A stretch of DNA of 45,846 nucleotides. It comes from a bacterium. GTDB taxonomy: Bacteria; Bacillota; Clostridia; Lachnospirales; Lachnospiraceae. Positions within the stretch are counted from its first letter, which is position 1; every line of letters begins with the position of its first letter. The position numbers and the translations under genes are program-made. The notes under the pieces were generated by a model. That model saw nothing but the letters and a program-made list of their open reading frames with translations. It did not search any database and had not been told where the DNA came from. Shown here piece after piece: positions 4,322 to 7,572 of the stretch. The stretch is from contig JAQYCU010000069.1 of the NCBI GenBank assembly GCA_028724545.1, positions 1 to 45,846 of the forward strand, written 5' to 3'.

Positions 4322-5680
4322 TTATAAGAAGATATATTTCGCAACAAATAAAATAGCCAGAATATACATTAAAGGAGTGATTTTCTTAGCTTTTCCACAG
4401 CAAAGGTTGATGATAACGTAAGAGATAACTCCGATAGCGATTCCTTCTGAGATGCTGTACATTAAAGGCATAGCAATTAAGCAAAGATATGCTGGAACAG
4501 CTTCTGTTAAATCGTTGAAATCAATTTTAGCAACAGCAGTTACCATTAAGAAACCTACAAAGATTAATGCAGGAGCCGTTGCGAATCCTGGAATAGCTGT
4601 AAAGATAGGAGCAAACAGGATTGCCAGTAAGAACATAATTGCTGTTACAACAGAAGAAAGACCGGTTCTTGCACCAGCACCAACACCAGCAGAACTTTCT
4701 ACATATGTAGTTGTTGTTGATGTACCAAAGATAGCACCTGCTGTTGTAGCAATGGCATCAGCAAGTAATGCTGGTTTGATTCTTGGTAATTTCTCATTTT
4801 CATCTAACATATCAGCTTTTGTAGCAACACCAACTAATGTTCCGATGGTATCAAACATATCTACAAAGAGGAAAGATAAAATAACAACCAGGAAGTTTGC
4901 AATACCTACACCACTAAAGTCTGCTTTGAATACCTGTCCAAATGTTTCTCCGATTTTTGAAAAATCAGTAATTCCTAATGAAGGATAGAGAGAATAAAAT
5001 CCTGCGTCAGGAGTAACGGTATAAAGTCCTGTTGCCTGTGCTAACATACCTAAAATCCAGGTTGCAAGAATACCAATCAGGATTGAGCCACTGACTTTCT
5101 TTACATATAAAACAATCGTAATAAAAAGTCCGATTAATGCAAGGATGGCACAAATTCCTTCTGTATGGAAATTCTCTCTGAAGTTTACATAAGATAATAA
5201 TGTAGAATCATCATTAACAACTAAGTGAGCACCCTGTAAACCGATAAATGCAATAAATAAACCGATACCGGCACTAACACCTTTTTTCAGTGTACTTGGA
5301 ATTGCATTAAAGATTGCTTCACGCACGTTTGTTAAAGATAAGATGATGAAGATGACACCTTCAATAGCAACAGCTGCTAAAGCGATGCGCCAGTCATAAC
5401 CCATCTTTCCACATACAGTAAATGCAAAGTAAGCATTCAGTCCCATACCAGGAGCTAAAGCGAATGGATAATTGGCTAATAATGCCATACATAATGTACC
5501 AACAAATGCAGCAAGACATGTTGCAATCAATGCAGCAGTAGCATCAATGCCTGCTGCTGAAAGCATAGAAGGGTTAACTGCAAGAATATACGCCATTGTC
5601 ATAAAGGTAGTAAGACCGGCAATGACTTCAGTACGTACATTCGTATTGTTTTCTTTCAGTTTGAAAAATTTTTCTATCAT
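4322..5680 (-). CDS. NCS2-family purine permease (AzgA/PbuG type)
   Basis: A 452-residue polytopic protein of the AzgA-like branch of the NCS2 family, recognisable by the N-terminal TEVIAGLTTFMTMAYI and NPSMLS segments and by LAPGMGLNAYFAFTV. Such permeases import hypoxanthine, guanine or adenine with protons. ATG at 5680 is chosen because the GAGGA of an upstream in-frame ATG (5692) serves as its ribosome site. The gene lies 134 bases after apt in the same direction, so imported or salvaged adenine is handled by both products. The gap holds a candidate RNA pseudoknot immediately before the ribosome site, suggesting translational control of this gene separate from apt. Confidence 0.92.
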   Translation of the reverse strand: MIEKFFKLKENNTNVRTEVIAGLTTFMTMAYILAVNPSMLSAAGIDATAALIATCLAAFVGTLCMALLANYPFALAPGMGLNAYFAFTVCGKMGYDWRIALAAVAIEGVIFIILSLTNVREAIFNAIPSTLKKGVSAGIGLFIAFIGLQGAHLVVNDDSTLLSYVNFRENFHTEGICAILALIGLFITIVLYVKKVSGSILIGILATWILGMLAQATGLYTVTPDAGFYSLYPSLGITDFSKIGETFGQVFKADFSGVGIANFLVVILSFLFVDMFDTIGTLVGVATKADMLDENEKLPRIKPALLADAIATTAGAIFGTSTTTTYVESSAGVGAGARTGLSSVVTAIMFLLAILFAPIFTAIPGFATAPALIFVGFLMVTAVAKIDFNDLTEAVPAYLCLIAMPLMYSISEGIAIGVISYVIINLCCGKAKKITPLMYILAILFVAKYIFL

Positions 5681-5695
5681 TTTTTTCCTCATTTC

Positions 5696-5752
5696 TGCAC
5701 TGCCACTCAGTGTTTTTTACTATTTGTGTCTGGCAGTGCATTGACACAAATA
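5696..5752 (-). promoter_or_regulatory. Candidate H-type pseudoknot in the leader of the purine permease gene
   Basis: Four 10-base arms form two perfect, interlocking pairings on the minus-strand RNA. TATTTGTGTC (complement of 5743-5752) pairs with GACACAAATA (complement of 5721-5730). Its hairpin loop contains TGCACTGCCA (complement of 5731-5740), which pairs with TGGCAGTGCA (complement of 5696-5705). The 10-base loop arm is separated by two bases from stem 1 on one side and abuts it on the other, and a 15-base strand joins stem 1 to the second arm. Nine bases follow before the permease ribosome site AGGA. An alternative small hairpin CACTG/CAGTG would disrupt stem 2. Seen directly: the complementarity. 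Inferred: a regulatory pseudoknot, possibly ligand- or protein-responsive. Confidence 0.6.
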
Positions 5753-5814
5753 AAGTGGGGTGGGGATGCATAATCACATTTTTAATCATGCAGTCACCGT
5801 TTTTTGCGTAATCG

Positions 5815-6345
5815 CTACTTTCCCTCATAGGACAGGACAGCATCAATATCGTAGTTTTTGAGGCGTTCCCGTCCGTTCAGACCGGCCAGTTCCAATAAGA
5901 AAATAGCCTTTTGGACTTTTCCACCCAGACGCTCGATAAGTTTGATGCTGGCTTCCACCGTTCCACCTGTTGCAATCAGGTCATCGACTAACACGACTTT
6001 CTGGCCTGGCAGGATAGCATCCTTGTGGATTTCGATTTCTGTACTTCCATATTCTAAATCGTATTTTTCGGAAATGGTGTCGCAAGGCAGTTTTCCTTTC
6101 TTACGAACAGGCACGAAAGATTTTCCTAATGCATAAGCAATCGGTGCGCCAAAAATGAAACCACGTGATTCGGCTCCGACAATAATATCAAAGTCAATGC
6201 CATTCAGCAAATGAATCATAGAGTCGATAGCCAGCTTTAAGCCATCCGGGTCCTGCAGAACAGTTGTAATGTCGCGAAACATGATTCCGGGTTCGGGGAA
6301 ATCAGGAATCGTTCTTACGTAATCTTCTAATGTCTTCAATGACAA
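5815..6345 (-). CDS. apt: Adenine phosphoribosyltransferase
   Basis: A 176-residue type I phosphoribosyltransferase that converts adenine and PRPP to AMP. The PRPP-binding motif VVLVDDLIATGGT lies at residues 117-129, and the N-terminal PDFPEPGIMFRDITT and the GAESRGFIFG segments are typical of bacterial Apt. A TTG at 6345, four bases after AGGAGG, is taken as start; a second TTG at 6339 with 10-base spacing is equally possible, and no ATG is available nearby. It leads a minus-strand unit with the purine permease. The leader contains an 8-bp inverted repeat (GTGTAAAA 6378-6385, TTTTACAC 6403-6410) of unknown role. No confident -35/-10 pair was found. Confidence 0.95.
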   Translation of the reverse strand: MSLKTLEDYVRTIPDFPEPGIMFRDITTVLQDPDGLKLAIDSMIHLLNGIDFDIIVGAESRGFIFGAPIAYALGKSFVPVRKKGKLPCDTISEKYDLEYGSTEIEIHKDAILPGQKVVLVDDLIATGGTVEASIKLIERLGGKVQKAIFLLELAGLNGRERLKNYDIDAVLSYEGK

Positions 6346-7196: not shown

Positions 7197-7214
7197 GTAT
7201 TGTATCTTGGTGTC

Positions 7215-7364
7215 CCAGCCAGCATAGGCTTCCTTTTCTATCAAGGGGACGCTTTTGCTGCGCAAACTACGCAGCAGTACATAGTATCCTGAAAAAGCAC
7301 AGGATACAAGTACTGGCGAGTTTGTAAGCCCCCTTTTATGGAAAAGGGAGCCTATGCTGGCTGG
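7215..7364. repeat. 150-bp palindromic element able to fold as a cloverleaf (MITE-like or structured RNA)
   Basis: The ends form a 24-bp stem with a single G·T mismatch (7215-7238 with 7341-7364; the outer 16 bp, CCAGCCAGCATAGGCT and its complement, are perfect). A second inner stem follows: AAGGGG 7243-7248 with CCCCTT 7330-7335. Inside sit two perfect hairpins, TGCTGCG/CGCAGCA (7256-7262, 7270-7276) and GTATCCTG/CAGGATAC (7284-7291, 7300-7307), the latter extended by AGTAC/GTACT (7276-7280, 7310-7314). No coding frame is convincing and no clear target duplication is visible. A non-autonomous palindromic repeat is the likeliest explanation; a folded RNA is possible. No second copy is in this window. 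Confidence 0.7.
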
Positions 7365-7572
7365 CAATCTAGACTGTGGAGAATTATTTGTCTAAGTGTA
7401 TGGATGCAATTAACAGAGAAGTTGATTTGTAAGCAGAGTGTGTTGGCAGGCAATCCAGATTTTTGTTTTATGCAAAAGATGAAAAGCGTACCGTCTTAGA
7501 ACAGCTGGTTTGCAGACTCGAATTTAGCAGTACACTCTCGTTTGAAAACAGTACAGCAGCCAACTTGTAAAT

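Follow-up and report, generated by a model that had tools for sequence, protein, structure and literature searches.

We consider it likely that the 57-nt leader preceding an NCS2 purine permease gene in a genome of the family Lachnospiraceae is one copy of a multi-copy, interspersed 5'-leader element of this family, roughly 65-100 nt in length, which has been inserted at Shine-Dalgarno (SD) sequences, is kept as RNA, and most likely works as a general module for translation initiation or mRNA protection. At the level of sequence, insertion at the SD and the diversity of the genes concerned are demonstrated at the loci tested. The copy lies in what we call the window, i.e. the whole stretch of DNA analysed here (45,846 nt), and the features around it are as follows.

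5752-5696, minus strand: leader pseudoknot of 57 nt, TATTTGTGTC-AA-TGCACTGCCA-GACACAAATA-GTAAAAAACACTGAG-TGGCAGTGCA
5721..5752, minus strand: stem 1 hairpin, TATTTGTGTC (5752-5743) pairing with GACACAAATA (5730-5721), read from the sequence
5696..5740, minus strand: stem 2 (the pseudoknot), TGCACTGCCA (5740-5731) pairing with TGGCAGTGCA (5705-5696), read from the sequence
5742-5741, minus strand: L1, AA, read from the sequence
5706..5720, minus strand: L3, the A-rich 15-nt crossing strand GTAAAAAACACTGAG, read from the sequence
5687..5695, minus strand: constant 3' end GAAAT plus the SD GAGG (5690-5687), together GAAATGAGG, read from the sequence
5767..5792, minus strand: upstream hairpin P0, TGCATGATTA..TGATTATGCA, from RNA fold prediction
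4322..5680, minus strand: NCS2 purine permease (Pfam Xan_ur_permease, PF00860, E 7.4e-44), likely start ATG at 5680
5815..6345, minus strand: apt (NCBIfam apt), the gene before the permease; the element occupies the gap between the apt stop and the permease gene

A preliminary description of this DNA had pointed out two perfect, interlocking 10+10 bp pairings directly before the SD, and the minus-strand sequence at 5752-5696 bears this out, with GAGG followed by 6 nt and then by the ATG at 5680 on the same strand. Its view that a chance origin is unlikely also holds up: the copy is the sole perfect 8+8, 9+9 or 10+10 pseudoknot in the window when both strands are searched with loops of up to 6 nt and an L3 of up to 40 nt, and a 7+7 pseudoknot, the level at which the shuffles were scored, arose in 20 of 20,000 dinucleotide shuffles of the leader. 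The predicted RNA fold of 156 nt of the leader has a z-score of -3.75, as computed by a program that cannot draw pseudoknots. The 2-nt loop crossing a 10-bp stem, formerly regarded as a weak point of the structure, is less of a concern in view of the family. Among the aligned copies, unpaired cells are most frequent in the first pair of stem 2 (35) and in the two pairs of stem 1 beside the loop (27 and 23), followed by the outer two pairs of stem 1 with 21 each; as the least-kept pairs cluster at the loop junction, a few loose bases would seem to be tolerable there. L3 has a median of 14 nt over 96 copies of the element. The end formed by GAAAT and GAGG is common to the copies, which were found with that end in the query, and many other copies have a hairpin at the position of P0, often GAGTGAAAAATAAATTTTTCACTC.

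Several variants of this layout were also seen. At L239, L240, L248 and position C58:29649 of another genome, G246, small hairpins such as AGAACCAACTTTGTTGGTTCT replace the upstream hairpin or multiply at its place; G246 C8:30341 and C58:29649 have an extra hairpin within the stem-1 loop; and a subtype at L259, G026 C1:131859 and G026 C5:65758 has a GTGAAC..GTTCAC-like hairpin plus CTTGCAGAAATGAGG in place of the stem-2 3' strand beside the SD. Elsewhere in the window (7214-7366) lies a long inverted repeat, CCAGCCAGCATAGGCTTCC.. / ..GGGAGCCTATGCTGGCTGG, the arms of which are more than 100 bases apart; it resembles a MITE or a folded intergenic repeat.

The element is present in many copies. 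With up to 3 mismatches allowed, the 17-mer GCAGTGCAGAAATGAGG occurs at 26 sites in the window's own genome, as against 1 site for the reversed pattern, and 8 of the 16 sites listed by our script, namely those with a readable ORF and pattern, folded at a score of at least 32. A leader search of 60 relatives returned similar DNA in ten further genomes, all of the same genus and mostly before other genes. An exact scan of 84,980 species genomes gave at least 118 stretches; among the 80 matches listed, many are labelled as Lachnospiraceae, and the few from other phyla may be due to chance. The exact 17-mer with Y had no match in the viral contig set, and no plasmid match was found. Nine faecal records labelled 'Bacteriophage sp.' do match the element, and the six inspected by eye resemble bacterial gene fragments; these six, from human faeces (L492-L497; MT836618, MT838294, MT837110, MT838019, MT839466 and MT837311), appear by eye to hold bacterial genes, e.g. 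one for a DnaB-like helicase, and to carry a third subfamily of the element with the stem 2 GCGCAC/GTGCGC.

A covariance model (R1), built from 18 hand-picked copies (alignment A2) and modelling stem 1 only, had matches at E<=0.01 in all 28 genomes of the genus, 1 to 76 in each and 11 in the window's own, with a single weak match (E 0.006) in each of G009 and G016. In wider samples, 39 of 250 family genomes (counting the window's own) had matches, as did 3 of 245 genomes drawn from the whole class: the window's own, a second member of the family and, with a weak match, a genome of another family. These counts are lower bounds, because a limited number of candidates was scored per genome and diverged copies were missed; of 10 folded gyrB leaders (see below), the model found 4 at E<=1e-7 and one at 0.017. 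Among 160 distinct anchor sites, 96 had both stems at a score of at least 34, as against 0.2% of 480 plain shuffles of the upstream region, and 64 had no pseudoknot. A further alignment (A1), containing 60 of 67 references, plays no part in the later counts.

The fold has been kept by compensatory changes, and the element therefore acts, or acted, as RNA. In an alignment of 113 copies (107 distinct), all 12 stem-1 pairs were changed on both sides, and the most variable stem-2 pair was GC in 48 copies, AU in 32, GU in 20 and broken in 2; none of 500 shuffles reached the observed covariation, which dropped to a fraction when the partners were slid. Most of this set had been selected for the presence of both stems. 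The paired percentages of alignment A3, made from 100 of more than 300 loci, are inflated, since nearly all of its loci had been picked for having both stems. Alignment A5 consists of all 80 loci fetched from model matches, whatever their stem 2; here stem 1 was 93.2% paired, with changes on both sides in 10 of 12 pairs, and stem 2 was 94.0% paired, with such changes in 3 of 8 pairs, while 17 of the 80 loci gave no fold in the script run, whose 3'-end pattern missed them. In the own genome, stem 2 is written in unrelated letters before fliW (GCACAC/GTGTGC), an OPT transporter gene (GCGTTGTCG/TGACAACGC) and a Na/alanine symporter gene (GCACACA/TGTGTGC). Judged from these alignments, two interlocked stems, both with compensatory changes, make the element a member of the H-type pseudoknots.

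The gyrB leaders of the genus allow the same comparison before a single gene. Folding at a score of at least 34 was found in 10 of the 27 readable leaders (of 28 loci), as against 1 of 540 shuffles, the script counting only leaders with both stems paired. Stem 2 occurs there in at least six different sequences: GCACTGC/GCAGTGC, TGCGCAC/GTGCGCA, GCGTTAC/GTAACGT, GCGTCATT/AGTGACGC, CGCACGCT/AGCGTGCG and CGTGCGCC/GGCGCACG. In the six leaders tabulated, 4 of 7 stem-2 positions were changed on both sides with no mismatch, and of the 54 stem-1 cells 4 were mismatched. Between the three closest genomes, stem 1 has both sides changed at three positions. The differing stem 2 of the more distant gyrB leaders may in part reflect separate insertions of different subfamilies.

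Presence and absence of the element at the same site, together with remnants of old SDs, indicate that the insertions took place at SDs and that each leaves an SD at the 3' end of the element. In the gap between rpsQ and rplN, the element is absent from 20 of 22 genomes, including the window's own, the leader there being of the kind of GCGGAATATGGAGGTAATCATG; in the two that have it (G010 and G027), the left flank agrees with the empty sites as far as GGAG, and the right end bears a new GAGG. Two copies in G246 were compared with 20 loci hand-chosen from a match list of 38 congeners; the element is absent at 14 of 14 and 6 of 6 of these, although by eye 4 of the 14 are not strictly empty, because another hairpin-rich repeat occupies the site. 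That repeat (GTGAAGAGAATTTCTAAG..CTTAGAAATTC, at L475, L481, L482 and L483) is a different one and stands before an ordinary SD. One congener site without the element reads AAATGGAGGTTCCATATG, where G246 has AAATGGAGGAAA, the element, and GAGGAAAAAATG. For atpD, a model match lies directly before the gene at 1 of 27 loci, all of which were scanned with the model; two of them gave no start and some had other upstream contexts. Its many copies and its absence from the same site in relatives place the element among the small interspersed (MITE-like) repeats.

An excess of SDs to the left of the element is expected if the old SD is left behind by the insertion. Among the 44 copies with an upstream hairpin of the GAGTG..CACTC type or close to it, 27 indeed have GAGG or GGAG no more than 11 nt to the left of that hairpin; the corresponding count for control windows further upstream is 20 of 308. 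The window copy has no such remnant upstream and is probably old. To the right, the start codon follows GAGG by 5-7 nt in 81 of 91 folded copies. The position at the SD is partly built into these counts, because the 3' end including GAGG served as the anchor of the searches; the scans independent of the SD, by stem 1 and by hairpin, covered 700 kb of G246. There, each of the 12 stem-1 cores runs into the constant 3' end and then an SD; for 11 of them an ORF begins after another 4 to 6 nt, and for the twelfth ACG stands in the place of ATG. In a few copies the constant AAT is followed by GGAG rather than GAGG, which suggests that the letters of the SD derive from the target and not from the element.

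We infer mobility as the cause of the insertions. GAGG flanks many copies on both sides, and in 12 non-tandem copies the bases beyond GAGG match no more than expected by chance; a target duplication beyond GAGG is therefore not significant outside tandem copies. The tandem copies (L245, L284, L296, L074 and L164) may be plain duplications. Terminal inverted repeats were not seen by eye, the left end GAGTGAAAAA and the right end ..GCAGAAAT not being inverted copies of each other. A Y1 transposase was found once each in G000, G006 and G004 and is absent from 4 of 7 genomes (G246, G026, G027 and G014), though G246 has near-identical copies; an IS200/IS605 (PATE-like) mobiliser was rejected on this ground. 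In the 700 kb of G246 there are three copies consisting of the 3' end only, whereas 0 of 12 stem-1 cores lack the 3' end; such a bias would fit copying through RNA, but the copies are few, and decay or deletion can mimic it. At G246 C7:33560 the left hairpin is present and the usual right end is missing. Related structured repeats, AAACTTGC..ATGCGCAAAG..GCGCAAT, lie away from any SD at L397 near 353 and L402 near 9294 (G246 C3:352 and C8:49294), and are possibly a sister family or the source of the SD element.

These observations bear on a purely selfish element, whose fold would serve its own movement, as RNA or as single-stranded DNA, and whose terminal SD would only make the insertion harmless. 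Presence and absence at the same locus, the near-identical copies in G246, the tandem copies and the three 3'-end-only copies all speak for it; we nevertheless find it unlikely, as the compensatory stem-1 changes among the gyrB leaders of three close genomes, and the diverged yet folded copies in the own genome and before gyrB, argue for selection after insertion.

More improbable still is a genome-wide translational regulon, in which one trans-acting protein or RNA would read the pseudoknot, or toggle it with a TGCRC/GYGCA hairpin, and so co-control many genes. The constant sequence of the loop and the 3' strand in many copies speaks for such a factor. In addition, L3 often contains TGCRC, which is able to pair with the same GYGCA as stem 2, and it varies together with the 3' strand, which an alternative pairing would explain: its variable base and the 3' strand form AU in 44 copies, GC in 32, GU in 7 and other combinations in 20. 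TGCRC/GYGCA may thus be a competing hairpin, but the L3 pattern may equally come from common descent. The downstream genes looked at show no functional theme, and stem 2 has been wholly rewritten before fliW and gyrB, which a sequence-reading factor would hardly tolerate.

The same diversity of genes decides against a metabolite (purine or other) riboswitch, or a protein-controlled leader, specific to the permease, as the preliminary description had proposed. A real pseudoknot does sit before a purine permease, and a second permease of the same Pfam family (L114), beyond the set of eight leaders considered here, has a copy as well. However, among the eight NCS2 leaders of the genus (permease matches at E<=1e-80), the window's own alone has the element and the 7 others lack it. 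In the relatives at L319-L321 the end of an apt-like gene also precedes the permease, the spacer being short and normal by eye; at L321 a copy of the element lies about 500 nt past the gene end, outside the leader. The proposed search for covariation was thus answered in part: both stems covary across the element family, but the same leader is not found before the seven other NCS2 genes of the genus compared here. The statement that the leader matches none of the known purine riboswitches was correct, as no Rfam family scored above its gathering threshold in the window or at 15 further loci, and CRISPR-DR6 and mir-192, both below the cut-off, were the only matches at E<=10 in positions 5600-5900 of the window.

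No association with purine genes was found among the downstream proteins, whose gene names are our reading of Pfam names. All 8 of those in the own genome had a Pfam match, namely the permease, ThiW, GyrA, a LeuD-like protein, FliW, an OPT transporter, YhbY and a Na/alanine symporter. In other genomes, 20 proteins were hand-chosen from the 80 loci fetched via model matches, and the 19 with a Pfam match have varied functions: GroEL, flagellin, FliR, GyrB, GpsA, AtpD, DnaE, a RidA-like protein, an amino-acid kinase, AICARFT/IMPCHase, desulfoferrodoxin, SpoIVA, a UvrD-type helicase, ribosomal protein L14, Asp23, an epimerase, an ABC transporter, CheB and a PTS permease. With the element before such unrelated genes and missing from most NCS2 leaders, we have rejected the purine riboswitch; a purine-specific switch is very unlikely, and so is any other control specific to the permease. 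A leader-peptide attenuator, with a short ORF running through the pseudoknot to the TGA in AAATGAGG, was likewise rejected and is hardly credible: several copies in G246 and G026 do have an open ORF of this kind, but its frame is not favoured over the other two (a median of 24 open codons as against 24 and 27 in 110 copies), and in the window copy it stays open for only 5 codons.

The reading that we prefer, a leader element inserted at SDs and kept as RNA, would work as follows. Its layout comprises an optional upstream hairpin, the H-type pseudoknot, and the constant GCAGAAAT or a close variant, followed by the SD. Copies lie inside or beside the SD of a gene, and the SD that each one leaves stands at the usual spacing from the start codon; the gene, whatever its function, can therefore stay translatable. 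The pseudoknot would then form the 5' border of the ribosome site, the constant AGAAATGAGG staying free for the 30S subunit; this stretch resembles AGAAAGGAGG, the complement of the 16S tail, with one mismatch. Such a border would prevent the inserted DNA, once transcribed, from pairing across the SD, and may also shield the mRNA. A general role in translation initiation or mRNA protection, at the 5' edge of the ribosome site, is therefore the one we hold most likely. Going further, we suggest tentatively, and with more doubt than confidence, that the element is a mobile RNA leader that targets and rebuilds SDs and spreads harmlessly through essential genes (gyrA, gyrB, rplN and atpD), giving its hosts a shared pseudoknotted translation start; it would then be a transposable ribosome-binding site, possibly moving via an RNA intermediate.

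Some parts of this arrangement are familiar from other systems. In the S15 and alpha operon leaders and in preQ1 riboswitches, an H-type pseudoknot adjoins the ribosome site, each serving one gene or pathway; the present pseudoknot likewise abuts the ribosome site, but is dispersed over unrelated genes. The STAB-SD mRNA stabilisers of Bacillus have an extended SD-like stretch, comparable to AGAAATGAGG here, which may bind the 30S subunit and shield the mRNA; we know of no pseudoknot or repeat family associated with them. The BOX, RUP and SPRITE repeats of pneumococcus are short, structured, multi-copy sequences with varied insertion sites, and are held to be parasitic (PMC3049150). The Lachnospiraceae element resembles these repeats and MITEs in being short, structured and present in many copies at differing insertion sites, and departs from them in that its copies sit at the SD, leave an SD at their 3' end, contain a covarying pseudoknot, and have no terminal inverted repeat visible by eye. 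In Beggiatoaceae, about 170 sets of TAACTGA direct repeats lie for the most part immediately before start codons, and the downstream genes show no functional pattern (PMC4679880). Those are 7-nt direct repeats, mostly without an SD, for which that account, so far as it extends, reports no fold. No description of the element was found in the literature searched (CC-licensed PMC papers), and no Rfam family matched it. Small interspersed repeats and dispersed repeats before start codons come closest in kind; what appears to be new is that an element lands on an SD, leaves one at its end and contains a covarying pseudoknot.

If this reading is right, a single repeat that lands on SDs and rebuilds them has reshaped the start regions of many housekeeping genes across a large group of gut bacteria, which would be an unusual route for unrelated genes to gain the same structured leader. 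It would make two matters testable, i.e. the effect of an SD-abutting pseudoknot on initiation, and the machinery able to target SDs. Furthermore, it would explain odd Lachnospiraceae leaders that can be mistaken for riboswitches, the leader in the window included.
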